A stretch of DNA of 64,000 nt from Arthrobacter hankyongi (GTDB lineage: Bacteria; Actinomycetota; Actinomycetes; Actinomycetales; Micrococcaceae): NCBI RefSeq assembly GCF_022012395.1, contig NZ_JAKLTQ010000001.1:434001-498000 (forward strand). Reading direction: 5' to 3'. Every line of letters starts with the position of its first letter. Position 1 is the first letter of the stretch. The notes beneath the pieces were generated by a model. That model did not search any database. It was not told the origin of the DNA and saw nothing but the letters and a program-made list of their open reading frames with translations. The position numbers and the translations under genes are program-made. Shown here piece by piece: positions 25,351 to 60,319 of this stretch.

Positions 25351-25680
25351 GCCACCGGAAAGTGAGGCGGCAGGGGTCCCCGCCCCGAAGCAAGCGCCGA
25401 GGGACCCGCTGCGAGCTTGCGAGCAGCGGGGAGGCGTGAAGCGCTGCGAGGGTCGGGGCGGCTGCCGGAAAGTGAGGCGGCAGGGGTCCCCAGCCCGAAG
25501 CAAGCGCCGAGGGACCCGCTGCGAGCTTGCGAGCAGCGGGGAGGCGTGAAGCGCTGCGAGGGTCGGGGCGGCCGCCGGAAAGTGAGGCGGCAGGGGTCCC
25601 CAGCCCGAAGCAAGCGCCGAGGGACCCGCTGCGAGCTTGCGAGCAGCGGGGAGGCGTGAAGCGCTGCGAGGGTCGGGGCG
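25351..25680. repeat. 110-bp tandem repeat, three copies
   Basis: Copies begin at 25351, 25461 and 25571 and differ at only a few positions; a fourth copy is cut off after about 7 bases. Each begins near GCCGGAAAGTGAGGCGG and contains, at offsets 43-94 (25393-25444, 25503-25554, 25613-25664), a hairpin stretch with core CTGCGAGCTTGCGAGCAG. That stretch is the reverse complement of the dispersed repeat at 28034-28099 and 50355-50420. The array fills the gap between the ABC ATPase and the ligase gene. Open frames through it reflect repetition, not genes. Confidence 0.93.
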
Positions 25681-28033: not shown

Positions 28034-30334
<2,301 letters not shown>

Positions 30335-46693: not shown

Positions 46694-47032
46694 ATGTCAT
46701 CGCAAGCTCTTGCGCATGGTGGCAACCGCGGCAACAAGGACCTGCCCGGGCGGATTAAAACAGCGGTGCAGGGCCTGCACCGCCGGGCCAAAGCAGCCGA
46801 CCTGCGCCTGCCGCTGTGGGTCCTTGGCCTGACCTTCGGATTCTGGTTCGCGATTTTCTGGGCCGATGCCCCCCAGATCGGCCTCATCTCCCCCGTTGCC
46901 ACGCTGCTGAAGATCTACGGCGCGGGCATTGCGGTTGCGGCCACCCTGGCCGTTGTGGCCGGCTCGGTCTGGAGCATTATCCGGCGGATGGGCTACGCCG
47001 ACGTCTTCGCTCCCGACACCGACGACAACTGA
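46694..47032 (+). CDS. Small two-helix membrane protein
   Basis: 112 residues. A basic N-terminus is followed by two helices (about 42-58 and 64-92) and an acidic C-terminus. GGAGGAAG lies about 11 nt before the ATG. No family recognised. The 241 bp upstream (46453-46693) contain no gene I can support. Confidence 0.72.
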   Translation: MSSQALAHGGNRGNKDLPGRIKTAVQGLHRRAKAADLRLPLWVLGLTFGFWFAIFWADAPQIGLISPVATLLKIYGAGIAVAATLAVVAGSVWSIIRRMGYADVFAPDTDDN

Positions 47033-47082
47033 ACCGGCAGGCACAGAGCTGCCAGCAGTCCCGGGGCACTGAGCGTCCGGGT

Positions 47083-47125
47083 CAGTGCGTCCGGCTGCGG
47101 CGAATCGCCGCGGCCGGACGCACTG
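47083..47125. terminator. Hairpin after the small membrane protein gene
   Basis: CAGTGCGTCCGGC pairs with GCCGGACGCACTG (13 bp, perfect), and an inner CGGCGA...TCGCCG pairing extends the structure. It lies 50 bp past the gene and 68 bp before the TetR gene, so it could also be a repressor site. Confidence 0.7.
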
Positions 47126-47192
47126 CCGTTCCGGCGGCGTGCATAGGATAGGGAAACAGTGCCCACCGCCGGAGATTGCGAGGAGCAACCCG

Positions 47193-47885
47193 ATGACAGC
47201 CGAGGCAGCGCCCCGGAAAAACCGTCCCGCTGGACGCCCTGCGCAGAAGATCCTGTCCAAGGAGGGCATTACCCTCGCGGCGCTCAAGCTCATCGCCGCC
47301 GGCGGCTACGAAGCGCTGACCATGTCGGGACTGGCCCGCAAGCTCGGCGTCGCCCCCTCGGCGCTGTACAACCATGTGACCTCCAAACATGACGTCCTGG
47401 TGCTGGTCCAGGACCATGTCATGTCCGGTGTGGACGTCTCGGGCTTCGGTACCGTGCCGTGGGCGGAGGCGGTCCGCCGCTGGGCCTGGTCCTACCGGGA
47501 CGTCTTCAGCCACCACACCCCGCTGATTCCGGTCATCGCCGTGCTGCCGGTGACCGGTGCCCCGCGCACCCTGGCCATGTATGAAGAACTCACCGCCGGG
47601 TTCCTGGCCGCCGACTGGCCGCAGCCGCTGATCGTCCCGGCCATCGTGGCGCTGGAATCCTTCATTTTCGGCTCCGCCTATGACGTCACGGCGCCGGAGG
47701 ACATCTTTGAATCCGGGGAACTGGCCGACGCCAATCCGAAATTCACTGCCGCGGTGCGGGCCCGGCAGCGCGGTGAGGGTGGCACCGGTTCGCGGACAGC
47801 GGACGCGGCCTTCCGGCTGGGACTGGAGGGCCTGATCAGCGGGCTGGAAACGCAGCGCCGGAGTTGGCCCGGCGACAGCGCGTAG
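47193..47885 (+). CDS. TetR-family transcriptional regulator
   Basis: 230 residues. The helix-turn-helix lies at about 20-66 (ITLAALKLIAAGGYEALTMSGLARKLGVAPSALYNHVTSK split across the recognition helix ALYNHV), with the C-terminal TetR ligand domain after it. GAGGAG stands 7 nt before the ATG. Its targets are unknown: it precedes the Ter operon by about 160 bp on the same strand but has no divergent partner. Confidence 0.92.
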   Translation: MTAEAAPRKNRPAGRPAQKILSKEGITLAALKLIAAGGYEALTMSGLARKLGVAPSALYNHVTSKHDVLVLVQDHVMSGVDVSGFGTVPWAEAVRRWAWSYRDVFSHHTPLIPVIAVLPVTGAPRTLAMYEELTAGFLAADWPQPLIVPAIVALESFIFGSAYDVTAPEDIFESGELADANPKFTAAVRARQRGEGGTGSRTADAAFRLGLEGLISGLETQRRSWPGDSA

Positions 47886-48046
47886 GTCCCGGCGCGCCGG
47901 ATGGAAACAAACCTGTCGGTCCAGCCGTTAGGGTGTTAACTAAGAGCGTCTCGGGGGGAAGACCACCTATTGGGCGCCACCGACTACCGGTTTCTCCCGG
48001 AGCAACTGCCCCGTGGGGAAACGGCACCCAAAGGAGTACCCTAGGC
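47886..48046 (+). promoter_or_regulatory. Leader of the Ter operon with possible RNA structure
   Basis: 161 bp without a gene. GTTTCTCCC near 47990 and GGGGAAACGG near 48015-48025 can pair as a hairpin that would sit just upstream of the AAGGAG ribosome site (48031-48036). The sequence did not match the Mn2+ yybP-ykoY consensus that I could recall, although TerC-family genes often have that switch. Regulatory role is conjecture. Confidence 0.35.
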
Positions 48047-49159
48047 GTGTTTTTCAAGACCTTCGGCTGGTCCCTGGCCATCACCGCCATTGCCTTGGTT
48101 GTGGCCTTCCTGTACGGGGGACCGACCGCGCTGATCCTGTGCGCCATCCTGGGCGTGCTCGAGGTCAGCCTCAGCTTCGACAACGCCGTGGTGAACGCGC
48201 GGATCCTGGAGCGGATGAGCCCGTTCTGGCAGAAGATGTTTTTGACCGTGGGCATCGTGATCGCCGTGTTCGGCATGCGGATCGTGTTCCCGCTGCTGAT
48301 CGTGGGCGTCACCGCGCAGCTGAACCCGGTCGAGGCGGTGACCCTGGCCCTGGAGAAGGGCGACCCGCACACCCCGGGCACCTACGCCTACCTGCTGCAT
48401 GAGGCCCACCCGCAGATCGCCGCGTTCGGCGGGATGTTCCTGCTGATGCTGTTCCTGGACTTCATGTTCGAGGACAAGGACATCCACTGGCTGCACTGGC
48501 TGGAGAAGCCGATCGCCAAGATCGGCCGGCTCAACGGCGCCTCGTTCATCGTGGGCCTGCTGGCGCTGCTGCTGATCGCCAACCTGGCCGCCGAGCACAC
48601 CGTCACCGTGCTGGTCGCCGGCATCGCCGGGCTGGTCACCTACTTCCTGGTCACCGCCCTGGGCGACCTGTTCGACGTCGACGGGGACGAGGATACCGAC
48701 GCCGAGGACACCGCCGCGGTCGCCGCCCGGGACGCCGGCCCGAACCCGGCCGCGAAGGTGGTCGGCAAGGCCGCGTTCATGCTCTTCCTCTACCTGGAGG
48801 TCATCGACGCCTCGTTCTCCTTCGACGGGGTGATCGGCGCGTTCGCGATCACCGCCGACCCGATCATCATCGCCCTGGGCCTGGGCCTGATCGGGGCGAT
48901 GTTCGTCCGCTCGCTGACCGTGTTCCTGGTCCGCCAGGGCACCCTGGACGAGTACGTCTACCTGGACCACGGCGCGCACTGGGCCATCGGCGCCCTGGCC
49001 GCGATCCTGCTGATCACCATCAGCGTCGAGGTCAACGAGGTCATCACCGGCCTGATCGGCGTGGTCTTCATCCTGGCCGCGTTCCTCAGCTCCGTCCGCC
49101 GGAACAAGCGCCTGGCCGCGACCGAGCATGCCGAAGCACTCACCGCAGCAACCAAATAG
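48047..49159 (+). CDS. DUF475 (TerC-superfamily) membrane protein
   Basis: 370 residues with about nine helices. The TerC-family hallmark LEVSLSFDNAVVNARIL (about 33-49) is repeated in the second half as YLEVIDASFSFDGVIGAFA. Acidic residues in these helices fit metal-ion transport or sensing. An acidic cytoplasmic loop (DVDGDEDTDAED, about 208-219) separates the halves. The GTG start has AAGGAG about 10 nt upstream. It opens the Ter operon; a TerD gene follows after 14 bp. Confidence 0.9.
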   Translation: MFFKTFGWSLAITAIALVVAFLYGGPTALILCAILGVLEVSLSFDNAVVNARILERMSPFWQKMFLTVGIVIAVFGMRIVFPLLIVGVTAQLNPVEAVTLALEKGDPHTPGTYAYLLHEAHPQIAAFGGMFLLMLFLDFMFEDKDIHWLHWLEKPIAKIGRLNGASFIVGLLALLLIANLAAEHTVTVLVAGIAGLVTYFLVTALGDLFDVDGDEDTDAEDTAAVAARDAGPNPAAKVVGKAAFMLFLYLEVIDASFSFDGVIGAFAITADPIIIALGLGLIGAMFVRSLTVFLVRQGTLDEYVYLDHGAHWAIGALAAILLITISVEVNEVITGLIGVVFILAAFLSSVRRNKRLAATEHAEALTAATK

Positions 49160-49173
49160 GAAAGAGGAAAACC

Positions 49174-49764
49174 ATGGCATTGAGCCTGCAGAAGGGCCAG
49201 TCCCTGTCCCTGACCAAGAGCGACGGTAATTCCCTGACCAAGGTCCGGCTCGGCCTGGGCTGGGATGCGGCGGCGCCCGCCAAGCGCGGCCTCTTTGGCG
49301 GCCTCAAGAGCGTGGAGGTGGACCTGGACGCCTCGGCGATCCTGTTCGACGCCGCCGGCAAGGCGCTGGATGTCGTCTTCTTCAACCAGCTCAAGAGCCA
49401 GGACGGCTCCACGCAGCACACCGGTGACAACCTCACCGGCGAGGGCGACGGCGACGACGAGACCATCCTGGTGGACCTGCCGGCGGTCTCCCCCTCGGTG
49501 GCCCACCTCGTGTTCGTGATCAGCAGCTACAGCGGCCAGACCTTCGACAAGGTGGCCAACGCGTTCACCCGGCTGCTGGACGATTCCGCTCCGGGAAGCC
49601 CCGAGGTGGCCCGCTTCCAGCTCACCGACTCGGGCAGCCACACCGCCATGATCATGGCCAAGGTTTCCCGCCAGGGCGCCGGCTGGACCTTCCAGGCCAT
49701 TGGCGAGCGGGCCACCGGCCGCACGGTCAAGGACCTGATCGCCCCGGCAGCCCGGGTGCTCTAA
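49174..49764 (+). CDS. TerD-family protein (paralog 1)
   Basis: 196 residues. The N-terminal LSLTKSDG and LGLGWD are the usual TerD opening. Calcium-binding acidic motifs are VDLDASAIL (about 49-57) and [13 protein letters not shown] (84-96). Compared with the other paralogs it has a Lys-rich insertion (KRGLFGGLKS), similar to TerZ-type members. Ter proteins are linked to tellurite, phage and oxidative stress tolerance. Ribosome site AGAGGAAAA precedes the ATG. Confidence 0.95.
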   Translation: MALSLQKGQSLSLTKSDGNSLTKVRLGLGWDAAAPAKRGLFGGLKSVEVDLDASAILFDAAGKALDVVFFNQLKSQDGSTQHTGDNLTGEGDGDDETILVDLPAVSPSVAHLVFVISSYSGQTFDKVANAFTRLLDDSAPGSPEVARFQLTDSGSHTAMIMAKVSRQGAGWTFQAIGERATGRTVKDLIAPAARVL

Positions 49765-49781
49765 ACGAAGGGAATGAATAA

Positions 49782-50363
49782 ATGGCATCACTGACACTTG
49801 GCAAGGGCGCCAACCTGTCCCTGACCAAGGCGGATCCCGGGCTGCGCCAAGCCATGGTCGGGCTCGGCTGGGACCCGCGCACCACCAGCGGCGCTGCGTT
49901 CGACCTGGACGCTTCGGCCCTGCTGCTGGGGGCCAACGGCAAGGTCCGTTCCCAGGACGACTTCATCTTCTACAACCAGCTCGCCACCCCGGACGGCTCG
50001 GTCGTGCACCAGGGCGACAACCGGACCGGCGAGGGCGACGGCGACGACGAGCAGATCCTGATCGACCTGGGCCTGGTCGCCGCCGACGTCGAGCGCATTG
50101 TGATCGCCGTTTCGATCGACCAGGCGGACGCACGCGGGCAGAACTTCGGCCAGGTGCGCGACGCCTACTGCCGCGTGCTCAACCAGGAAACCGAGCAGGA
50201 GATCGTCCGCTTCGATCTCAGCGAAGACGCCGCGTCCGAAACCGCGATGATCTTCTCGGAGCTCTACCGCCGCGACGGCGAGTGGAAGTTCCGGGCCGTC
50301 GGCCAGGGCTACGCCAGCGGCCTGTACGGGATCGCCACGGACTTCGGCATCGCGCTCAGCTAG
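49782..50363 (+). CDS. TerD-family protein (paralog 2)
   Basis: 193 residues, canonical TerD fold. Motifs are [12 protein letters not shown] (about 27-38), [14 protein letters not shown] (41-54) and [13 protein letters not shown] (78-90), which bind calcium in characterised TerD proteins. About 70-75 percent of visible residues match paralog 3, indicating recent duplication. The C-terminus ends -LS because the stop codon lies inside a hairpin repeat (50355-50420). Confidence 0.96.
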
Positions 50364-50420
50364 CGCGTCGCGCCTTCCCTCTGCTCGCAAGCTCGCAGCG
50401 GGCCCTCGGCGCTAGCTGAG
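50355..50420. repeat. Dispersed hairpin repeat, complete copy
   Basis: Perfect 12-bp inverted ends CTCAGCTAGCGC (50355-50366) and GCGCTAGCTGAG (50409-50420) enclose a hairpin core with CTGCTCGCAAGCTCGCAG. The left end provides the final Leu-Ser codons and the TAG stop of TerD paralog 2. The unit is 66 bp long and aligns with 28034-28099. The following 50421-50496 hold no gene. Confidence 0.88.
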
Positions 50421-50496
50421 TGGGGCGCTCCACGCAGTGGGAAGGCGGGACGCGCTTACCGTCAGCATCCATCCCCAGAAGCAAAGGAATTGATCA

Positions 50497-51078
50497 ATGG
50501 CAGGCCTCACCCTGGACAAGGGCAGCAACCTCTCCCTGACCAAGACGGACCCCGGACTGCAGAAGGCCGTGGTCGGCCTCGGTTGGGATCCCCGGACCAC
50601 CACCGGGGAGGCATTCGACCTGGACGCCTCGGCCCTGCTGCTCGGGGCCAACGGCAAGGTCCGCTCCTCGGCGGACTTCATTTTCTACAACCAGCGTGCC
50701 GCCGCGGACGGCTCCGTGGTGCACGAAGGCGACAACCGCACCGGTGAAGGCGGCGGCGACGACGAAACGATCCTGGTGGACCTGTCCGCGGTGGCCGCGG
50801 ACGTGGAGCGCGTGGTCTTCGTGGTCTCCATCGACCAGGCCGAGGCCCGGGGGCAGAACTTCGGTCAGGTCCGCGGCGCCTACTGCCGGGTGGTCAACCA
50901 GGCCACCGAGCAGGAGATCGTCCGCTTCGACCTCAGCGAGGACGCGGCCCCCGAAACGGCCATGATCTTCTCGGAGATCTACCGGCACAGCGGCGAATGG
51001 AAGTTCCGCGCCGTCGGCCAGGGCTACGCCACCGGCCTGGCCGGCATCGCCACCGACTTCGGCGTGCAACTGGGCTGA
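50497..51078 (+). CDS. TerD-family protein (paralog 3)
   Basis: 193 residues, nearly the same as paralog 2: [34 protein letters not shown] and the calcium motif [13 protein letters not shown]. Ends FGVQLG, the more usual terminus, while paralog 2 ends in repeat-derived codons. The ATG has AAAGGAA upstream. A stable hairpin lies between this gene and TelA. Confidence 0.96.
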   Translation: MAGLTLDKGSNLSLTKTDPGLQKAVVGLGWDPRTTTGEAFDLDASALLLGANGKVRSSADFIFYNQRAAADGSVVHEGDNRTGEGGGDDETILVDLSAVAADVERVVFVVSIDQAEARGQNFGQVRGAYCRVVNQATEQEIVRFDLSEDAAPETAMIFSEIYRHSGEWKFRAVGQGYATGLAGIATDFGVQLG

Positions 51079-51092
51079 GAACCGGTCCACAC

Positions 51093-51124
51093 TGCTGCGG
51101 GACCGGCCCGCCGGTCCCGCAGCA
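51093..51124. terminator. Intra-operon hairpin between TerD and TelA genes
   Basis: Perfect 14-bp stem TGCTGCGGGACCGG / CCGGTCCCGCAGCA with loop CCCG. It would attenuate transcription of downstream Ter genes relative to TerD, or mark the end of a TerC-TerD unit. No U-tract. Confidence 0.7.
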
Positions 51125-51169
51125 CCAGTTTCGCAACACTCCCGCAGCTTTTACCGGAAGGAAGACACC

Positions 51170-52363
51170 ATGACATCGCCCCTGACTCCCCCGGATGTCA
51201 CCGAGGGAACCCTGGTCCTGCAGGCCCCGGAGGCCCCGGCCCTGGTCCAGCCGGACGATGCCCCCGGCATGGTGCCGGTTCCCGCCGAACGCCAGCAGGA
51301 AATCAACCAGCAGGCCGCCGCTTTCATCGCCGACGTCGCCAAGCTGGATTCGCGCAGTCCCGATTTCGCGCAGCGCGTGGACGGCATCGCCAAGCTCGGC
51401 CGTGACGAGATGCTCGAGTCCGGCACGTTCTCCAGCCGGATGCTGGAGCGCTCCTCCACCTCGGTGGCCGGTGCCAAGCGCAACGGCAACAGCGCCCAGG
51501 CCGCAGTGGCCAGCACCCTGGGCGAACTGCGCAGCACGGTCGAGGACCTGGCCCCCACGAACGAGCACTTGAGCGTGGGACGCAAGATCCTGGGTTTCCT
51601 CCCCGGCGGCAACAAGCTGGCCAAGTACTTCCAGCGCTACGAAAGCGCCCAGCAGCAGCTCGATGCCATCATCAAGTCCCTGATGGCAGGCCAGGACGCG
51701 CTGCTCAAGGACAACGCCGCGCTGGCCAACGAGAAGGTCCAGCTCTGGGACAACATGCAGAAGCTCAGCGAATACGCCGTGTTCGCCCAGGCCATCGACA
51801 ACGCCTGCGTGGCCAAGATTGACGAATCACGCGCCCAGGGCCGCCTCGACGATGCCCAGAAGCTCGAGTCCGATGTGCTCTTCCCGGTGCGCCAGCGGCA
51901 CCAGGACATCCTGACCCAGCTGGCCGTGTCGGTGCAGGGCTATCTGGCGATGGACCTGATCCGCAAGAACAACACCGAACTGGTCAAGGGTGTGGACCGC
52001 GCGCGCACCACCACCATTGCAGCGCTACGTACCGCCGTGATTGTGGCCGAGGCACTGGCCAACCAGAAAATGGTGCTGGACCAGATCGACGCGATCAACA
52101 CCACGACGAACAACATGATCCTCAAGACCAGCGAGATGCTGAAGGACCAGACCGCACGCATCCACCAGCAGGCCGCCAGCTCCGGCGTCAGTGTGGAGAC
52201 CCTGCAGAAGGCCTTCGACAACGTCTTCCAGACCATGGATGCGATCGACACTTTCCGGTCCCAGGCCGCGAAGAACATGGAGGGCACCGTCCACGCGCTG
52301 GAGGCCGGGCTTCAGAAGGCCAAGCCGTACCTGGAGCGCGTCCGCCAGGCCGAGGAACAGTAG
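51170..52363 (+). CDS. telA: TelA-family toxic anion resistance protein
   Basis: 397 residues, mostly alpha-helical with long coiled-coil stretches (about 100-380). Conserved family segments include PTNEHLSVGRKILGFLPGGNKLAKYFQRYESAQQQLDAIIKSL (within residues 120-165) and DMIRKNN-like MDLIRKNNTELVKGVDRA. TelA proteins co-occur with TerD in tellurite and stress loci. The ribosome site AAGGAAG precedes the ATG. Localisation is likely cytoplasmic. Confidence 0.94.
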   Translation: MTSPLTPPDVTEGTLVLQAPEAPALVQPDDAPGMVPVPAERQQEINQQAAAFIADVAKLDSRSPDFAQRVDGIAKLGRDEMLESGTFSSRMLERSSTSVAGAKRNGNSAQAAVASTLGELRSTVEDLAPTNEHLSVGRKILGFLPGGNKLAKYFQRYESAQQQLDAIIKSLMAGQDALLKDNAALANEKVQLWDNMQKLSEYAVFAQAIDNACVAKIDESRAQGRLDDAQKLESDVLFPVRQRHQDILTQLAVSVQGYLAMDLIRKNNTELVKGVDRARTTTIAALRTAVIVAEALANQKMVLDQIDAINTTTNNMILKTSEMLKDQTARIHQQAASSGVSVETLQKAFDNVFQTMDAIDTFRSQAAKNMEGTVHALEAGLQKAKPYLERVRQAEEQ

Positions 52364-52379
52364 GCGGGACTGATCCGGT

Positions 52380-52880
52380 TTGGTAGCACGGTTTTTCGGT
52401 TCGCTGTTCGGCACCCCGCGCCCTGAGGACGGTGCCGGGCCGGAGCCTGCCCCGGAGCCCGACGACGACGCCCGCACGGCGGCGGCGCTGGACCGGCTGC
52501 GGTCGGCGGTGCGCGCCGCCGGCCGCGACCTGCCCGGGATCATTTCCTCCCAGCTGCGCCAGATTGACGATGTGCTGCAGCCGCTGGCCGAGTACGCCCA
52601 GGCGCAGGGCGCTTCCACCGAGCAGCGCGTACTGCTCGAAGCGATGGTCGTGGACTACATCCCCACCCCACTGAACGCCTACCTGGCCCTGCGCGAGGAG
52701 GACCGGGACGAGGGAACCCGGGCCACCGCCATGTTCGCCGAGCAGCTGACCATCCTGTTCGACACGGCCCAGGACCTCAACCACCAAGTAAGAAGCGGAG
52801 CGATCACCGAGTTGTCCACCTACGCACGATTCCTCGATGACAAGTTCGGGCCGTCCATGCTGACCCGGGGAGGCAACTGA
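52380..52880 (+). CDS. Ter-operon helical protein, uncharacterised
   Basis: 166 residues starting at TTG. A short N-terminus FFGSLFGTP is followed by an acidic linker and a helical domain (about 30-160) with no enzyme motif (IISSQLRQIDDVLQPL, MVVDYIPTPLNAYLAL). It lies 17 bp after telA and its stop overlaps the start of TerD paralog 4. Helical companions of TelA are common in such loci; the name is unknown to me. Confidence 0.75.
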   Translation: MVARFFGSLFGTPRPEDGAGPEPAPEPDDDARTAAALDRLRSAVRAAGRDLPGIISSQLRQIDDVLQPLAEYAQAQGASTEQRVLLEAMVVDYIPTPLNAYLALREEDRDEGTRATAMFAEQLTILFDTAQDLNHQVRSGAITELSTYARFLDDKFGPSMLTRGGN

Positions 52881-53431
52881 TGGCCTCCATGGTGGCCGGC
52901 GCCAATGCCGCCCTGACGGCGGAGAACCCGCAGCTGGCCACCGTGGTGGTCGGTCTTGGCTGGTCGGTGATCCCCTCCCGGGGGCCGCAGACCGAGCCGG
53001 TGGCCGCGGCCATCCTCTGCGACAGTTCGGGCCGCGCGGTCTCGGATGAGCACATGGTCTTCTTCAACCAGATCGCCTCCCCCGACGGTTCGGTGCAGTT
53101 CCTCGGCGACGAAGACCAGGAACAGATCGACGTCGACCTGCCCGGGGTGCCGGAGGCGGTTGCCAAGATCACCTTCATCGTCTACATCGACCCGGACCTG
53201 CGCGGGCCCGGCACGTTCGCCTCGGTGCGCGATGCCTACATCCGGCTGGCGGATCCGCAGAACCGCGAGCTGTTGCGCTTCGAGATCCCGTCCGGGACGG
53301 CACAAAACATCAATGCGATGGTGTTCGGGGAACTGTACCGGCACTCGGGCGGCTGGAAGTTCCGTGCCGTCGGCCAGGGCTATACCACGGGCCTGCGCGG
53401 CGTGGCGGACGACTTCCGGATTGCCCTCTAG
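52880..53431 (+). CDS. Divergent TerD-family protein (paralog 4)
   Basis: 183 residues. Overall TerD pattern is kept: VVVGLGWSV (about 22-30), [32 protein letters not shown] near the end. The calcium-binding GDNxTGEGxGDDE is replaced by GDEDQEQ (about 76-82), and the first acidic site DLDAS is changed to AAAILCD. So it probably cannot bind calcium like its paralogs. The start overlaps the preceding stop (TGATG). Confidence 0.9.
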   Translation: MASMVAGANAALTAENPQLATVVVGLGWSVIPSRGPQTEPVAAAILCDSSGRAVSDEHMVFFNQIASPDGSVQFLGDEDQEQIDVDLPGVPEAVAKITFIVYIDPDLRGPGTFASVRDAYIRLADPQNRELLRFEIPSGTAQNINAMVFGELYRHSGGWKFRAVGQGYTTGLRGVADDFRIAL

Positions 53432-53435
53432 CACC

Positions 53436-54347
53436 ATGGCAGTGAACAGGACCGCGATCCGCCACGACCTTGCCTTCCTGCGCCGCCGCCTGAAGCCGGC
53501 CGCGGCAGCTCCCGCCGCGGCGCAGCCGGCGGCAGCCGCACCCCTGGTCCCGCCACCGGCTCCCCCGGCGCCCGCCGTACCTGCGGCACCGGCTGTTTCG
53601 GCGGGGCTGGACCTCGGCCGCCCGGCCGCCCCGGCCCCCGCACCGGCGCCGGCTGCGCCCGCCCAGGCTCCGGTCCAAGCACCGGCCAGCGCGTCGGCCG
53701 CGCTCAGCCTGTCCCGCCCGACGCCGCCCGCGGCGTCACCGGCGCCCGCCGCGGTGCCGCTGAACCTGTCCCGCCCGTCCGCGGCACCGGCCGGCACCCC
53801 GGCGGCCGGCCCTCCCCGCTCCGGTGACAGGCTGCCGCAGCTGTTTCCGGCGCCGGACACGAGCCAGCTGCATGAGCTGACCCGGGCCCGGCCGCTGGTC
53901 AGGCTCAACCCGCGCCAGTCCGCCGTCGGCAGCCTGCGGGTAGCCGGGGCCACCTCGGCCGTCTGGGAATCCTCAACCCGCATCACCGGTGCCCTGACCC
54001 GGGACGGCCAAGGCACCGGCCGGCCCGTACCCACCGCGGGCAACCGGCCGCTGGTGGATTTCGAGGACGGCGAGGCGCTGATCGCCCTGCGGCACCTGAA
54101 GGAATTCCGCCGCGCGCTGTTCGTCGGCGCCGACGACGCACCGCTGGCGGTGCGGGTCTACGGCGGTGCCTCCGTGGTGCTGCCGCCGGAAACCGGGCAC
54201 CGCAATGTCCTGCTGGTCTCGCGGATCGGCTCCGTGCTGGAACTGCGCTCGGATCCGGTTCCGGCAGGGGCGCCGGCCGAGGCCCTGTGGCAGGCCTTCG
54301 GCTTCCGGATGTCCGTCGCGCTGCCGGCCGGCGGATGGTCCGCCTGA
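53436..54347 (+). CDS. Ter-operon protein with LxLxRP repeats, uncharacterised
   Basis: 303 residues. A basic N-terminus (RRRLK) is followed by a Pro/Ala-rich linker (about 21-130) that contains LDLGRP (58-63), LSLSRP (90-95) and LNLSRP (109-114), and then a folded domain (about 140-303) with ALFVGADDAPLAVRVYGG and no known motif. The repeated LxLxRP resembles the LSLTK strand of TerD N-termini, so it may be a docking motif. Its end overlaps the next gene by 13 bp. Confidence 0.75.
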   Translation: MAVNRTAIRHDLAFLRRRLKPAAAAPAAAQPAAAAPLVPPPAPPAPAVPAAPAVSAGLDLGRPAAPAPAPAPAAPAQAPVQAPASASAALSLSRPTPPAASPAPAAVPLNLSRPSAAPAGTPAAGPPRSGDRLPQLFPAPDTSQLHELTRARPLVRLNPRQSAVGSLRVAGATSAVWESSTRITGALTRDGQGTGRPVPTAGNRPLVDFEDGEALIALRHLKEFRRALFVGADDAPLAVRVYGGASVVLPPETGHRNVLLVSRIGSVLELRSDPVPAGAPAEALWQAFGFRMSVALPAGGWSA

Positions 54348-55534
54348 CCGTGCGCCATTTCAGTTTCCTCGCCGAAGAGCAGCTGGCCCGGCTCTTCCAC
54401 CGCCGGCCCGCCGAGCTCAGCCTCGAAACCGATCCGGCCCTGCTCGCCGCCGCCCTCGGCGCCACGCTCTACAGCCCCGGCACGCGGCCGGGGCTGGCCG
54501 ACGACGTGGTCAAGCTCGGCGCCCGCGGCTGCGTCAGCCAGGTCCTCTGCCTCGAGGACTCGGTACCGGACCAGGAGCTCGCCGCGGCGGAGGAGAATGT
54601 CCTGGCCGCGCTCAGCCGGCTGCAGGACCGCAGCGCGGCACACGATGCCGGCAGCCTGCAGACGCCGATGCTCTTCATCCGGACCCGCAGCCCGGAGCAG
54701 ATGCTGGCACTGGCCCGCCGCGGCGGTCCGGCGCTGCGGGCGGTTTCCGGTTTCTCCATCCCCAAATTCGAGAACGAAACCGGGCTGGCCGAACGGTATT
54801 TCGAAGCCCTCGGGGAGGTCCGCCGGCTGGTCGGGGGCGGTCACCGGATGTGGGTCATGCCGATCCTGGAATCCCCGGCCATCATCCACCGCGAGACGCG
54901 CACGCGGGCCCTGGCGCATGTCTTCGACGTGATCAAGCAGCACCGCGAGGATGTCCTGGCCGTGCGGATCGGGGCCACGGACTTCTCCAGCGCCTTCGGG
55001 CTGCGCCGGTCCCGGGACCTGACCATCTACGACGTGCAGGTGGTCGCCTCGGTCATCGCCGACATCGTCAATATCCTCGGCCGGCCCGGGGACGGCCTGG
55101 TGATCACCGGCCCGGTCTGGGAGCACTTCGTCAACACCGAGCGGCTGCTGCGCCCGCAGCTGCGCTCCACTCCCTTCGAGGCAGCGGACGAGGCAGCCCT
55201 GCGCCAGCGCCTGCTGCGCTCCAACCTGGACGGGCTGATCCGGGAAACCGAGCTGGACCACGCCAACGGGCTGCTCGGCAAGACGGTCATCCATCCCAGC
55301 CACGTCCCGGTGGTCCATGCGCTCTCCGTGGTCAGCCATGAAGAATACCTGGACGCCCAGGACATCGTAGATCCGGCCAACGGCGGGGCCAAGGCGTCCC
55401 CGTACAGCAACAAAATGAACGAGATCAAACCCCACCGGGCCTGGGCCGAACGGACCCTGCTCAAGGCGGCCGCGTTCGGCGTGGCCGCCCCCGACGTCAA
55501 TTTCGTAGACCTGCTGGAAGCGAGCATGCAGTGA
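54335..55534 (+). CDS. CitE-like (HpcH/HpaI-fold) lyase of the Ter module
   Basis: 399 residues. TIM-barrel C-C lyase/aldolase superfamily: LCLEDSVPD (71-79) is the acidic CitE motif, and SIPKFEN, MWVMPILESPAII and RIGATDFSSAFGLRR (about 208-222) carry substrate- and metal-site residues. CitE-like enzymes are known members of Ter-associated biosynthetic modules. The next gene starts inside its last codons (GTGA overlap), so the products are made together. Confidence 0.85.
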   Translation: MVRLTVRHFSFLAEEQLARLFHRRPAELSLETDPALLAAALGATLYSPGTRPGLADDVVKLGARGCVSQVLCLEDSVPDQELAAAEENVLAALSRLQDRSAAHDAGSLQTPMLFIRTRSPEQMLALARRGGPALRAVSGFSIPKFENETGLAERYFEALGEVRRLVGGGHRMWVMPILESPAIIHRETRTRALAHVFDVIKQHREDVLAVRIGATDFSSAFGLRRSRDLTIYDVQVVASVIADIVNILGRPGDGLVITGPVWEHFVNTERLLRPQLRSTPFEAADEAALRQRLLRSNLDGLIRETELDHANGLLGKTVIHPSHVPVVHALSVVSHEEYLDAQDIVDPANGGAKASPYSNKMNEIKPHRAWAERTLLKAAAFGVAAPDVNFVDLLEASMQ

Positions 55535-58224
55535 CCATAACAAGCACCGGGGACCCGGCGGAGACCGCCGTGCTGCCGTGGACCGGCGGCCACGTCGAGT
55601 CCGTGCTGGAGATCGGCGTCGGCACGGACACCTCCGGCAGCCTCTTCGACGTCCGGGAGCTGGTGGGGCTGGCCCTGCGGCGCAACCCGAAGCGGGCGCA
55701 TCTGCTGGTCTCCCGCGTCCTGGGCAAGCACCGGCCCAGCGATCCGGGACTGGTCATCGCCGCCGGCGAACTGCTCGGCGTGCTCGCGGCCCAGGCCCTG
55801 GACGGAACCCTGCCGGACGGCGCCGCAGCGGTCCGGCAGGCGGCCGGCCACCTCTCGGCGGTGCTGCGGCTGGCCCAGACACGGCCGGAATCCCCGGAAG
55901 CGGCGGCCGAGCGCGCCCGGCTACTGCACGCCGCGCGCGGCCTGCTTGCCCCGCTGCGTGCCTCGCATCCGGAGGCGGCCACCCTCGGCTATGCCGAGAC
56001 AGCCACCGGCCTGGGCCGCCTGGTGGCCGGGGCCGTCGGCTCCTACTACATCCACTCCACCCGGCACAGCGGCAACGGCACCGCCGCGTACGGCGCCTTC
56101 GAGGAAGCGCATTCCCACGCCACCTCACACCGGCTGCTGCCCGCGGACCCGGCCCGGCTCGACCGTGCCCGGGTGCTGGTGCTGGTCGACGACGAGCTGA
56201 GCACCGGGGCCACCATTATCAACACCATCCGCGAGCTGCATGCCCGGTCGCCGAAGGAACAGTACGTGGTCGCCGCGCTGGTCGATCTGCGCACCGACGC
56301 GGACCGGGCCCGCTTCGAAGCACTGGCCGCCGAACTGGGCACCGTGATCCGCACCGTTGCGCTGGCCCGCGGGTCTGTGACCCTGCCGCCGGATGTGCTG
56401 GACCGCGCGCGGCAGCAGCTGGCCGCGCTGCCCGCCGCGAACGACGGCGCGGCAGCGGGCGGCCCGGCAACAGGCAGCACCGCAGCGGCCACCGGCCGCG
56501 TGGTGCTGCTACCGGTGGCGGCCAGCGACCTGCCGGTCGGGCCGGCGGCCCTGCTGGACCGCTACGGCAGTGCGCCCGCCGGATTCGGCGCCGCGGCCCG
56601 GACGGCTGCCGCCGTCGGCCGCCGCGTGCTGGAGGCGCTGGACAGGCTGGACGTTCAGGCCGCCGCGGACGGCATCCTGGTGCTCGGCACCGAGGAATAC
56701 CTCCATCTGCCGCTGGCGCTGGCCGACTGGCTGGCCGGCGAGGTTCCGGCCGGCGTGCCCGTCCGGTTCTCCTCGACCACCCGCTCCCCGATCGTGGCGC
56801 TGGCGCGGCCGGACTATGCCATCAACACCGTCCTGTCCTTCGCCAGCCACGACGGCACCATCGATGGTCCCGGCCCGCGCTACGCCTACAACGTCCACCG
56901 TCCCGGCGAACGCCGCGGCACCGTCGTCGTCGTTCCCGAACCCGGCACCGATCCGGCCTCGGTGACCGGCCCCGGAAGCCTCGCCGAGGCGCTGGGCGCG
57001 GCCTGCGACCGCGTCCTCGTCGTCCAGCTACCCGGCCCGGCAGGCAGCGGGACGGCCGGCCCGCTCGCAACCCGCGCGGATGCCGAAGCACCGGCCGGAG
57101 CCCTCCCGGACCCGCTGTACGGGCCGGAATTCGGGTCCTACGCCGCCGGCGAGGTGGCCTGGCTGCTGAAGGACCTCAGCCGGGTGCAGCTGGAGGCCCC
57201 CACCGCCGAGCGCGAGCGGGCCATCCAGGCCGGCACCGCCCACTACGCCGAGTCGCTGCCGGTGGAATACCATCCGAGCCCGGAATACCTGGCCCTCTTC
57301 GAGCAGGCGCTGGAACGCTCGGCCGGACGGGTGGCGCAGGCCATCGGCGTCGTGGCGGAAATGGCGCTGGCGGCCCGGGACGGCCGGCCGGTGCTCGTCT
57401 CGCTCGCCCGCGCCGGCACCCCGGTGGGCATCCTGATGAAGCGCTGGCTGCGCGACTTCCACGGCCTGGACGTGCCGCACTACACGATGAGCATCGTCCG
57501 CGGGCGCGGGATCGACGAAACCGCGCTGCGCTACCTGGCGGCCCGCCACGACCCGGCACGGGTCCTCTTCGTGGACGGCTGGACCGGCAAGGGCGCCATC
57601 AGCCGCGAGCTGCAGGAGGCGCTGGAACGCTTCGCCGCCGAGCACGGCCCCAGCTTCAGCCCGGAGCTGGCTGTGCTGGCGGACCCGGGACACTGCACCA
57701 CGCTGTTCGGCACCCGCGACGACTACCTGATTCCCTCGGCGTGCCTGAACTCCACCGTCTCCGGCCTGGTGTCCCGCACCGTACTCAACGCGGACTACAT
57801 CGGGGCCGGGGACTTCCACGGCGCCAAGTTCTATGCCGAGCTCGCCGGTTCGGACCGGTCCGCCCGGTTCCTCGACGCCGTTTCCGCCCGCTTCGCCGAC
57901 GTCCGGGACGCCGCCGCGGCCGAGGCAGGCCAGCGTCTGGCCGAGGTTCCCACGGTGGACTGGAGCGGCTGGAAGGCAGTGGAGCGGATCGCCGCCGAGT
58001 ACGGCATTCCCAGCCCCAACCTGGTCAAGCCCGGAGTCGGCGAGACCACCCGGGTGCTGCTGCGCCGGGTGCCGTGGCAGGTGCTGGTCAACCCCGAAGC
58101 CACCGCGGACCTGGGCCATGTGCTGCTGCTGGCCGAACAGCGCGGGGTGACGGTGGTCGAAGTGCCGGGCCTGCCGTACAGCTGTGTCGGGCTGATCAGG
58201 CCCGAGCCGGAAGGCAGCCGATGA
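55531..58224 (+). CDS. Fused phosphoribosyltransferase-TRSP / StiP-PELOTA protein
   Basis: 897 residues with a composite layout. First is a PRPP-binding phosphoribosyltransferase with VLVDDELSTGAT (about 218-229). Then a TRSP region with Thr417-Arg-Ser-Pro420 in FSSTTRSPIVALARP. From about 527 follows a StiP-like region with LVSLARAGTPVGILM (622-636), FVDGWTGKGAI and PSACLNSTVSGLVSR, and the C-terminus (about 820-895) resembles a PELOTA RNA-binding fold. These parts are usually two proteins in Ter loci. The start is GTG, overlapping the lyase by 4 bp. Probable role: making a nucleoside-like metabolite. Confidence 0.88.
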   Translation: MTITSTGDPAETAVLPWTGGHVESVLEIGVGTDTSGSLFDVRELVGLALRRNPKRAHLLVSRVLGKHRPSDPGLVIAAGELLGVLAAQALDGTLPDGAAAVRQAAGHLSAVLRLAQTRPESPEAAAERARLLHAARGLLAPLRASHPEAATLGYAETATGLGRLVAGAVGSYYIHSTRHSGNGTAAYGAFEEAHSHATSHRLLPADPARLDRARVLVLVDDELSTGATIINTIRELHARSPKEQYVVAALVDLRTDADRARFEALAAELGTVIRTVALARGSVTLPPDVLDRARQQLAALPAANDGAAAGGPATGSTAAATGRVVLLPVAASDLPVGPAALLDRYGSAPAGFGAAARTAAAVGRRVLEALDRLDVQAAADGILVLGTEEYLHLPLALADWLAGEVPAGVPVRFSSTTRSPIVALARPDYAINTVLSFASHDGTIDGPGPRYAYNVHRPGERRGTVVVVPEPGTDPASVTGPGSLAEALGAACDRVLVVQLPGPAGSGTAGPLATRADAEAPAGALPDPLYGPEFGSYAAGEVAWLLKDLSRVQLEAPTAERERAIQAGTAHYAESLPVEYHPSPEYLALFEQALERSAGRVAQAIGVVAEMALAARDGRPVLVSLARAGTPVGILMKRWLRDFHGLDVPHYTMSIVRGRGIDETALRYLAARHDPARVLFVDGWTGKGAISRELQEALERFAAEHGPSFSPELAVLADPGHCTTLFGTRDDYLIPSACLNSTVSGLVSRTVLNADYIGAGDFHGAKFYAELAGSDRSARFLDAVSARFADVRDAAAAEAGQRLAEVPTVDWSGWKAVERIAAEYGIPSPNLVKPGVGETTRVLLRRVPWQVLVNPEATADLGHVLLLAEQRGVTVVEVPGLPYSCVGLIRPEPEGSR

Positions 58225-59090
58225 TGGCCCCGCTGGTCTGCTGCGACCTGGACCGCACGCTGATCTATTCGGCCGGCGCGCTGCTGCTCGACGGCGAAGA
58301 CCGGCTGGCCCCGGCCCTGACCGTGGCCGAGGTCTACCAGGGCCGCCCGCTGTCCTTCCTGACCCGGGCCGCGGACGTGCTGCTGGCGGAAATCGCCGCC
58401 GCCTGCACGTTCGTCCCGGTGACCACGCGGACCATGGCCCAGTACGAGCGGATCCGGCTGCCCGGGCCGCCGCCGCGCTACGCGGTCACCACCAACGGCG
58501 GACGGATCCTGGTCGACGGCGAGCCGGACCCGGTCTGGTCCGACCACCTCGCGCAAACGCTGGACAGCAACTGCTCGCCGTTGGCGGAAATTGCCGCCAA
58601 ACTGGCCGGGCCCGGGTATGCGCACTGGATGCTGCGGCTGCGCGACGCCGAGGAACTGTTCGTCTATGCGATCGTGGAGCGGGACCTGCTCTCCCCCGCG
58701 GACCTGGCCGGACTGGAACTGTGGTGTGCCGAGCGCGGCTGGACCGTCTCGCTGCAGGGGCGCAAGCTGTACTGCGTGCCCGAGGCCATCACCAAGGAAG
58801 CGGCGGTCGCCGAGATCGCGGTCCGGAGCGGCGGCAGCCCGCTGATCGCGGCGGGCGATTCGCTGCTGGACCGCGGCATGCTGCTGGCCGCGGACCACGG
58901 CCTCCGCCCCGCCCACGGCGAGCTGGAAGCGGCAGGATTCCTCGCCCCGCAACTGGCCGTCACCGCGGCCCGCGGCGTGCTGGCCGGCGAGGAGATCGCC
59001 CGCCGCATCCACGAACTGGTCTTCGCGCCGGACGCCGCTGCGGTAGCTGGTGCCGGACTGACTGCCGCTCTGCAACCCGCCCCGCATTGA
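58221..59090 (+). CDS. HAD-family phosphatase of the Ter module
   Basis: 289 residues. Motif I is DLDRT (9-13), with the acceptor Asp at 9; the conserved Lys is near 192 (EAITKEAA), and motif IV is GDSLLD (212-217). A cap region lies between. This is the Cof/sucrose-phosphatase-like group. It overlaps the preceding stop by 4 bp (ATGA) and closes the operon. It could dephosphorylate the product of the phosphoribosyltransferase step. Confidence 0.9.
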   Translation: MMAPLVCCDLDRTLIYSAGALLLDGEDRLAPALTVAEVYQGRPLSFLTRAADVLLAEIAAACTFVPVTTRTMAQYERIRLPGPPPRYAVTTNGGRILVDGEPDPVWSDHLAQTLDSNCSPLAEIAAKLAGPGYAHWMLRLRDAEELFVYAIVERDLLSPADLAGLELWCAERGWTVSLQGRKLYCVPEAITKEAAVAEIAVRSGGSPLIAAGDSLLDRGMLLAADHGLRPAHGELEAAGFLAPQLAVTAARGVLAGEEIARRIHELVFAPDAAAVAGAGLTAALQPAPH

Positions 59091-59101
59091 CTGAAGGATA
59101 G

Positions 59102-59233
59102 GCGTCGCTTGGGGTCCGTTTTGGCTCCACCGGCGTCGTCGAACGCGCGCTGGCCTCCGATGATGCGGAACCGGAGCCGTTGAAGCGGATCGCCTCCGGC
59201 GAACCGCTGGAGCAGCTGCCCTACCTGGGGTAA
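59102..59233 (+). pseudogene. Possible C-terminal gene remnant
   Basis: A short frame of 43 codons reads ...FGSTGVVERALASDD and ends EPLEQLPYLG-stop. It follows an in-frame stop and has no plausible start codon or ribosome site, while amino acid composition looks protein-like. It may be the tail of a deleted gene. The parent family is not recognised. Confidence 0.35.
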
Positions 59234-59264
59234 CGCGTCGGCGTCCGCGGTCCACGGCAAAACC

Positions 59265-59287
59265 TTGACAGATCGGCCCGGGCCGAT
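59265..59287 (+). promoter_or_regulatory. Promoter with palindromic operator before FMN reductase
   Basis: TTGACA (59265-59270) is a perfect -35 box. The following 17 bp contain the perfect 16-bp palindrome ATCGGCCCGGGCCGAT (59272-59287). No good -10 box follows at normal spacing, so an activator may be needed, or a repressor could sit in the spacer. Confidence 0.55.
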
Positions 59288-59331
59288 GGAATGGGAGGAC
59301 CAAGCGTTAACGGCCGGAAGGACTGAGGCCC

Positions 59332-59910
59332 ATGCCCGCTCCGAAGATCGCCATCATTCTGGGCAGCACCCGGCCCGGCCGGCTGGGCAAGGGCGTGGCC
59401 GACTGGGTCTATGGCCACGCCCGCAAGCGCACGGACGCGGAATTCGAGTTCATCGACCTGGCCGATCAGGGCCTGCCGTTGCTGGACGAGCCGGTGCCCC
59501 CGATCGCCGGCCGGTACACCGAAGACCACACCAAGGCGTGGGCGGCGAAGATTGCCGCGTTCGACGGCTACATCTTCGTCACGGCCGAATACAACCACTC
59601 AGTGCCCGCGGCGCTGAAGAACGCCATCGACTTCCTGTACGCGGAGTGGAACAACAAGGCGTGCGGCTTCGTCAGCTACGGCAGTGCCGGCGGCACCCGC
59701 GCCGTCGAGCATCTGCGCCTGATCGCCGCCGAACTGCAGATGGCCGACGTGCGTGCCCAGGTCTTCCTGCCGTATTCCCGCCAGTTCGAGGGCCGCGAGT
59801 TCAGACCCACCGAAAATGCCGCCAAGGCCCTGGAGCCGCTGTTCGACCAGGTCATTGCCTGGGCCGGCGCGCTGAAGCCCGTGCGCGACGCGCCCTCCAC
59901 GCCTGAATGA
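59332..59910 (+). CDS. NADPH-dependent FMN reductase family protein
   Basis: 192-residue flavodoxin-like protein. The FMN phosphate loop is ILGSTRPGRLGKGVADW (about 8-24), and the middle carries VTAEYNHSVPAALKNAIDFLY, the flavin-contact segment typical of this family, then SYGSAGGTRAVEHLR. Likely supplies reduced flavin or reduces quinones or azo dyes. GGAAGGA sits before the ATG. It is followed by a VOC gene after 7 bp. Confidence 0.93.
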   Translation: MPAPKIAIILGSTRPGRLGKGVADWVYGHARKRTDAEFEFIDLADQGLPLLDEPVPPIAGRYTEDHTKAWAAKIAAFDGYIFVTAEYNHSVPAALKNAIDFLYAEWNNKACGFVSYGSAGGTRAVEHLRLIAAELQMADVRAQVFLPYSRQFEGREFRPTENAAKALEPLFDQVIAWAGALKPVRDAPSTPE

Positions 59911-59917
59911 GGCCGCC

Positions 59918-60319
59918 ATGACCGTTGCGTTCAACCACACGATCATCTTTGCCAAGGACAAGGTCCTTTCTGCGGAATTCTTCGCCCGGATCTTCGGGGT
60001 CGCCCGGCCCAGGCCCATGTGGTCCTTCATGACGGTGATGCTGGCGGACGGGGTCGCGCTGGACTTCGCGAACTCGAGCCGGGACATCACCGCCCAGCAC
60101 TACGCGTTCCTGGTCAGCGAAGATGATTTCGACGGGATCCTTGGCCGGATCGAAGCAGAGCACCTCCCCTACTGGGCCGACCCGGCCAAATCCGTGCCGC
60201 AGCAGATCAACCGCAACGATGGCGGACGCGGCGTCTACTTCCATGACCCGGCCGGGCACCTCTTGGAGGCCATCACGCGGCCCTACGGCTCCGGTGGCAC
60301 GCCGCCCGGCCCGGTGTGA
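59918..60319 (+). CDS. VOC-fold protein
   Basis: 133 residues with glyoxalase-like repeats: FNHTIIFAKDKVLSAEFFARIFG at the start and GRGVYFHDPAGHLLEAITRPYG at the end, each carrying likely metal ligands (His and Glu). Seven base pairs follow the FMN reductase stop, so it is likely co-transcribed. Substrate unknown. GGCCGCC only precedes the ATG, with no strong ribosome site. Confidence 0.87.
   Translation: MTVAFNHTIIFAKDKVLSAEFFARIFGVARPRPMWSFMTVMLADGVALDFANSSRDITAQHYAFLVSEDDFDGILGRIEAEHLPYWADPAKSVPQQINRNDGGRGVYFHDPAGHLLEAITRPYGSGGTPPGPV

Follow-up and report, generated by a model that had tools for sequence, protein, structure and literature searches.

A Ter-dependent stress operon of Arthrobacter hankyongi with fused enzymes, no detected Ter ATP-grasp ligase and a StiP domain whose model resembles phosphoribosyltransferases

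Ter-dependent stress systems with a biosynthetic module were reportedly described in 2012 by Anantharaman, Iyer and Aravind, who are said to have predicted that the module makes a nucleoside-like product. TerB or TerF/vWA proteins are common in Ter systems but are not universal. The prediction of a nucleoside-like product is restated in the accessible parts of two papers (PMC7824862 and PMC8115787), the former of which proposes a division between signal-making enzymes, sensing by TerD and TerB, and membrane effectors. According to the accessible parts of PMC9933665 and PMC8115787, respectively, ter has been linked to envelope stress in Klebsiella, and terZ-F alone conferred tellurite resistance on E. 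coli in the Klebsiella work. Our literature search found no publication joining at least three of the terms TRSP, PELOTA, tellurite and phosphoribosyltransferase.

The operon studied here comprises eleven genes, all on the + strand, at positions 48047-59090 of the window, i.e., of the whole 64,000-nt stretch of A. hankyongi DNA that was analysed (G+C content 68.8%; source genome of 5.19 Mb in 67 contigs). With the systems reportedly described in 2012 it shares DUF475/TerC, TerD, TelA, the lyase, PRTase_2-TRSP, StiP/PRTase_1-PELOTA and HAD components. It differs from them in that no ATPgrasp_Ter, TerB or TerF was found in the genome, the enzymes are fused in one chain, and two proteins of no known family (g6 and g8) as well as a TerD paralogue without acidic motifs (TerD4) are present. 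Since it belongs with the stress systems reportedly described in 2012, its core was already known; what our analysis adds is an operon type in which no Ter ATP-grasp was found, the tracking of StiP by g8, the PRTase-like fold of the StiP model, a constant block of genes from g6 to HAD, and an empty site that corresponds to a 12-kb block.

Pfam families could be assigned to the products of eight of the eleven genes. The first gene (48047-49159) encodes a 370-aa integral membrane protein of DUF475/TerC type (Pfam DUF475, 3.5e-127; TerC, 6.3e-16; NCBIfam NF010613, 554 bits). It is followed by the genes of TerD1 (49174-49764; Pfam TerD, 3.7e-49), TerD2 (49782-50363; 8.4e-82) and TerD3 (50497-51078; 2.5e-81), and by those of the 397-aa TelA (51170-52363; PF05816, 5.9e-87), g6 (166 aa; 52380-52880), TerD4 (52880-53431; 7e-51) and g8 (303 aa; 53436-54347); g6 and g8 match no Pfam family above cut-off. 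The remaining three genes encode a CitE-like C-C bond lyase (PF15617, C-C_Bond_Lyase; 54350-55534; 1.4e-112), an 897-aa fusion protein (55531-58224), in which Pfam places PRTase_2 (3.3e-59), TRSP (1.1e-22), StiP, also known as PRTase_1 (2.3e-105), and PELOTA_1 (1.6e-33), and a HAD-type phosphatase (58221-59090). The HAD protein, which matches neither Pfam nor NCBIfam, was assigned by its motifs and by its homology to a HAD-like gene in the proteobacterial Ter locus L131 (BLASTP, 1e-12). A frame list filtered for high third-position GC shows nine of the eleven genes; those of g8 and HAD are embedded in longer frames and unlisted. Thus, the profile matches, together with the HAD motifs and homology, support the families proposed in the initial annotation (DUF475/TerC, four TerD proteins, TelA, lyase, fusion and HAD), the frames on the + strand bear out its eleven co-directional genes, and the profile matches and gene linkage in relatives support its connection of the locus to a Ter system with a predicted nucleoside-like product.

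Residues typical of the assigned functions are conserved. In the lyase, E195 and D232 (numbered from position 54287), which we take from the CitE superfamily to be metal ligands, are invariant in 82 of 82 aligned sequences. The PRPP-type motifs VDDE[LF]STG and [VI]DGWTGKG are kept in all 59 aligned fusion chains (that of the window and those of 58 of the best 80 related loci), while in the aligned HAD homologues DxDxT is present in 82 of 83 sequences and GDSxxD in all 83. The acidic motifs of TerD proteins are metal ligands, as known from the solved TerD structure. TerD1, TerD2 and TerD3 retain them, whereas DLDAS and GDNxTGxGxGDDE are missing in all six TerD4 rows of the TerD alignment; the remaining 14 rows have the loop.

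The intergenic distances in operon order are 14, 17, 133, 91, 16, -1, 4, 2, -4 and -4 nt, with the lyase start set to the GTG at 54350, where several relatives begin with MRHFS. Genes from TelA to HAD nearly abut or overlap, and this close packing couples TerD4 to the enzymes. The earlier description of the genes as often overlapping holds for this half only, as there are three overlaps in the whole operon. A consensus scan of positions 47000-60000 found no promoters of the sigma-70 type (0.6 expected), and no known RNA family reached the gathering score at positions 40000-64000.

A contig scan with the fusion protein yielded at least 552 relatives, the best 80 of which were analysed. The lyase, the PRTase chain and HAD occur in 80 of these 80 loci, and their association is therefore not a matter of chance. 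DUF475 was found in 70 and the TerD2-type protein in 73 of them, some of the contigs being short, while TelA, TerD1, TerD4, g6 and g8 were found in nine, all from Micrococcales. Twenty further stretches (17 from 16 genomes of the same family and three from other families) were added, and a six-frame check was made on 26 Micrococcales stretches, i.e., the 17 family stretches and the nine named Micrococcales loci. In each of the 26, g6, TerD4, g8, the lyase, PRTase_2, TRSP, StiP, PELOTA and HAD are all present, whereas TelA is present in 25, TerD1 in 23 and DUF475 in 17. No lyase was found in one stretch of another family (L126). Of 296 genomes sampled from the whole phylum, 14 have StiP above cut-off; within the family the figure is 47 of 295 sampled genomes (7 of 32 genera), and within the genus 1 of 10. 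The best matches among the 100 loci searched come from other genera and reach 60-61% (PRTase chain), 74% (lyase), 86% (TelA) and about 75% (DUF475).

The chain itself is not uniform. As judged by open frames, it is fused in nine of the 20 further stretches, split into PRTase_2-TRSP and StiP-PELOTA in nine, and broken or unclear in two (L118 and L120). One genome (G501) carries two copies of the operon (L117 and L118), in one of which the StiP frame is broken in two.

The initial annotation had noted that no ATP-grasp ligase is visible at the locus. This is correct and extends to the whole genome, in which the single match to PF15632 (26.9 bits, below cut-off) was rejected as a candidate, being carbamoyl-phosphate synthase. 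The 47 StiP-positive genomes of the family, this one included, likewise yielded no Ter ATP-grasp. Their PF15632 matches do not exceed 30.2 bits and pass the cut-off of 29.1 bits in 21 of the 47, and in all 47 the frame with the best match is longer than 1,000 aa and, judging by its length, presumably carbamoyl-phosphate synthase, as confirmed in the genome studied here. One genome (G398) has an additional match of 27.4 bits, distant from the operon and in a frame of 352 aa. A Ter ATP-grasp query that recovered its source, L131, at 2.3e-232 and a distant Polaromonas gene (L153) at 1.2e-29 matched nothing in 100 actinobacterial loci, in stretches of Tsukamurella, Mycolicibacterium, Prescottella, Curtobacterium, Lactococcus, Alkaliphilus, Brevibacillus and Bradyrhizobium, or in a phage contig (L132), and no such gene was found in six Gram-positive plasmid stretches. 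TerB (PF05099) and the TerF vWA domain (PF10138) likewise have no matches in the genome studied, in searches that were positive in 4 and 2 of 14 controls, respectively.

That no Ter ATP-grasp was found in this genome, the 47 family genomes or the 100 loci indicates that its absence is usual in the actinobacterial branch. Among 72,556 plasmid records, StiP matched 2,566 (in 232 of them over at least 80% of the query) and ATP-grasp 2,498, with nearly equal numbers in Klebsiella (1051 vs. 1050) and the same ones in Escherichia (439), Enterobacter (364) and Salmonella (350). Rhizobium accounts for 41 StiP matches, yet is outside the ten commonest genera for ATP-grasp. According to these results, ATP-grasp accompanies the enterobacterial-type branch, and among the Gram-positive loci seen it is usual that, as here, none is found. 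The statement that related loci carry an ATP-grasp gene is true of the proteobacterial L131 and L153. The suggestion that the locus is a minimal version can be upheld insofar as the ligase is missing, but not as a description of a reduced operon, as the absence is usual in the 47 genomes, the 100 loci and the six plasmid stretches, and extra genes are present. Many of the StiP matches on plasmids come from Klebsiella, Escherichia and Salmonella. The chromosomal operon studied here, whose enzymes share one chain and for which no ligase was found, offers a simple system for seeking the product.

The proteobacterial loci (L131, a contig of a viral collection, and L153, on Polaromonas plasmid pPNAP04) encode the same enzyme families as the operon studied here, but also have a Ter ATP-grasp, and their genes are arranged as ATP-grasp, PRTase_2, HAD-like, StiP, lyase instead of lyase, PRTase chain, HAD. 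In Lactococcus plasmid pFI430 (L151), where no ATP-grasp was found either, the genes of the lyase, PRTase, StiP and a protein in the HAD position are followed by those of TelA, three TerD proteins and DUF475. Unlike here, the enzymes are separate chains, YceG is present, and g6 and g8 were not found. Streptomyces-type loci (71 of the best 80, mostly from Streptomyces) share the fused chain, the lyase and HAD with the present operon, but in the stretches examined have no match to TelA, TerD1, TerD4, g6 or g8. The order TerD1, TerD3, TelA, g6, TerD4, g8, PRTase chain, HAD is the same in Curtobacterium plasmid pCPAA3 (L157), which differs in being a plasmid and in that DUF475 and the lyase were not detected in 18.7 kb; the roughly 1.6 kb that separate g8 from the PRTase chain there (5995-7639 of L157) have no lyase match. 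Other arrangements were observed as well. The Brevibacillus stretch has the lyase, PRTase and StiP, and no annotated HAD or TerD. A phage Ter locus (L132) encodes a TerF-like vWA protein, DUF475, TerD, PRTase_2 and StiP-PELOTA, with no Ter ATP-grasp found in 16.7 kb. One gene of L131 (4808-5944) joins a TerD domain with a trypsin-like protease domain. Genes of the AIM24 family adjoin Ter loci on three plasmids, two of them actinobacterial and one from Clostridia (L149, L150 and L152).

The current name of PF11202 and the PGAP protein names designate StiP as a cysteine protease, as do the names of 21 of 25 listed plasmid genes; the chain would then be an enzyme joined to a protease. In favour of this reading, C738 and H763 are invariant in 59 aligned actinobacterial chains, where C738 is assumed to be the catalytic cysteine. 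However, C738 is replaced by isoleucine in two of 39 aligned StiP domains (37 actinobacterial and two from viral contigs), both of the viral contigs, and by eye it is also absent from the divergent L126, while all 39 retain the RAG and DGWTGKG residues. The AlphaFold2 model of the isolated domain (pTM 0.84), compared with the PDB by Foldseek, has eight matches at E <= 0.001, of which seven are titled PyrR and the eighth is 1ufr, which we take to be PyrR too; HPRT enzymes rank next. No cysteine protease is present among the 50 matches listed of 1,499, which also include NanR and PLP-enzyme structures, and the TM-scores are modest (about 0.34 by query and 0.5 by target). The 2012 authors are said to have meant PRTase_1 in the sense of the PRTase fold. 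A table in the accessible part of PMC13109261 gives PRTase_1 as the former name of PF11202. The StiP gene of phage ME3 is annotated as phosphoribosyl transferase. The protease reading therefore appears highly improbable, and its label steers experiments the wrong way.

From its model, the StiP domain looks like a type I phosphoribosyltransferase fold, with a Rossmann-like core and a PRPP-type loop, a reading that restores an older label and does not introduce a new fold. The model, the old PRTase_1 name and the loss of the cysteine in distant relatives suggest that the fusion probably carries two PRTase-fold domains. The second of them may not be catalytic, as its loop is divergent, with DG for the DD of VDD..TG. 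Relatedness of StiP to PRTase_2 found no support by profile, a comparison of shallow alignments giving 0.3% probability and no match. By sequence, the best match to solved structures was adenine PRTase, with an E-value of 0.16.

The reading that we tentatively prefer, and to which we give a little less than an even chance, is that of a self-contained operon for a stress-induced pathway to a nucleoside-like product that is read out at a membrane assembly of TerD, DUF475 and TelA. The substrates, product and order of steps that we infer would be as follows. Envelope, metal or redox stress would switch the operon on, and the CitE-like lyase would make or trim the carbon skeleton of a base-like acceptor, which PRTase_2, possibly also the StiP domain of the same chain, would attach to the ribose 5-phosphate of PRPP. 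Dephosphorylation by the HAD enzyme would then give a nucleoside-like product, with PELOTA tethering the chain to the ribosome or to RNA. Either this product or the stress itself would act via TerD proteins, of which three have acidic motifs and one lacks them, at an assembly of DUF475/TerC and TelA in the membrane, where g6 and g8 might be lineage-specific scaffold or adaptor parts, and the outcome would be raised envelope tolerance. As no Ter ATP-grasp was found, the product would be made without the ligation step expected in proteobacterial loci.

Instead of a single operon, the genes may form two neighbouring but separate units, one for metal or tellurite (DUF475 to TerD3) and one from TelA or g6 to HAD with an output of its own. 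The block from g6 to HAD is constant in the 26 Micrococcales stretches, whereas the front part from DUF475 to TerD is variable: among the 17 family stretches, 11 have DUF475 and 14 have TerD1, and among the nine named Micrococcales loci the numbers are six and nine. Some absences are due to ends of stretches or contigs (as in L117 and L120), but that in L114 (G500), with no TelA, DUF475 or TerD1-3 within 5 kb before g6, is real within the stretch. In L120, from a genome (G398) of the same genus, opposite-strand genes separate g6 from TelA, which spans two frames, and in Streptomyces-type loci a TerD gene on the opposite strand lies between DUF475 and the lyase. The lack of DUF475 in 6 of 17 and 3 of 9 stretches indicates that the link of the membrane part with the enzymes is not strict, and the variation of the DUF475-TerD part takes weight from the preferred reading and adds it to that of two units. 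The tellurite resistance conferred by terZ-F alone, as reported in the accessible part of PMC8115787, suggests that the enzymes may serve another output, with which the front-part variation agrees. Two wide gaps also point to a division. The 133-nt gap before TerD3 folds at -61.3 kcal/mol and contains, at 50364-50418 on the + strand, a copy of a dispersed palindromic repeat, about 55 bp long, that has 22 matches in the genome, this one among them; in the window it also occurs at 25389-25663 and 28043-28105, with three copies at 110-bp spacing. The 91-nt gap before TelA (51079-51169) contains a perfect 14-pair hairpin, a possible attenuator on the + strand. In relatives, the TerD3-TelA gap has hairpins of different sequence in four of eight folded, but is about 30-35 nt long without a hairpin in three, and the consensus scan, which lists 10 terminator-like sites at 47000-60000 (4.6 expected), has none in either wide gap. 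Since TerD4 also sits within the second unit, we regard two separate units as unlikely.

Somewhat unlikely, in our estimate, is that the PRTase-fold/PELOTA chain makes no free metabolite and instead has RNA or the ribosome as its target, by base exchange, ribosylation or PyrR-like nucleotide-sensing RNA binding, with the lyase and HAD supplying or recycling the ligand. PyrR is an RNA-binding regulator of PRTase fold, and it provides the best PDB matches of the StiP model; PELOTA_1 is fused to StiP here and shares one chain with it in both split loci scanned with Pfam, and the full chain matches, at lower rank, archaeal Pelota and the hibernation factor Balon. On the other hand, PyrR comes first by fold only, with HPRT enzymes next, the constant HAD and lyase partners fit the synthesis of a small molecule, and we know of no RNA target of the chain. 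A more elaborate scheme, which we consider doubtful, is a two-site PRTase machine, in which PRTase_2 and StiP would act in turn, or as an enzyme and a PyrR-like product sensor, tied by PELOTA to RNA, while the Micrococcales set of TelA, g6, TerD4 (without acidic motifs) and g8 would form a dedicated membrane receptor of the nucleotide signal.

The proteins g6 and g8 are entry points to the putative receptor side. While g6 has a conserved N-terminal motif around FFGSLFG, g8 consists of a short conserved N terminus, a Pro/Ala-rich linker and a conserved C-terminal domain. g6 is a constant neighbour in the stretches examined: besides the nine loci among the best 80 of at least 552 relatives, all Micrococcales, it is found in 17 of 17 family stretches and on the Curtobacterium plasmid. 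The presence of g8 tracks StiP in all 67 genomes tested, i.e., in 47 of 47 StiP-positive family genomes and in none of 20 sampled from the 248 StiP-negative ones. The possibilities that g8 is a degenerate TerD (no match in profile comparison) or the tail of the opposite-strand TerD proteins of Streptomyces (not found there) were rejected, as was the assignment of g6 and g8 to phage or defence families, since neither matches PHROGs or PADLOC. TerD1 and TelA do have PHROGs matches. Ten of the eleven proteins (TerD3 left out) were scanned with the PADLOC anti-phage models and gave no match apart from a weak one of a PRTase (14.6 bits).

The operon lies in a 12.0-kb block (47886-59917) between a TetR gene that ends at 47885 and a glyoxalase-like gene that starts at 59918; the block also contains an FMN reductase gene (59332-59910). 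It is missing from G332, one of nine other genomes of the genus, where 17 nt separate the TetR stop from the ATG of the glyoxalase-like gene, and the flanking DNA of the two genomes is 78-88% identical. This empty site with conserved flanks indicates that the block either entered here or was lost cleanly in the other genome. No integrase was noticed among the named genes of the block. The best relatives of the FMN reductase gene in other genomes of the genus are located elsewhere.
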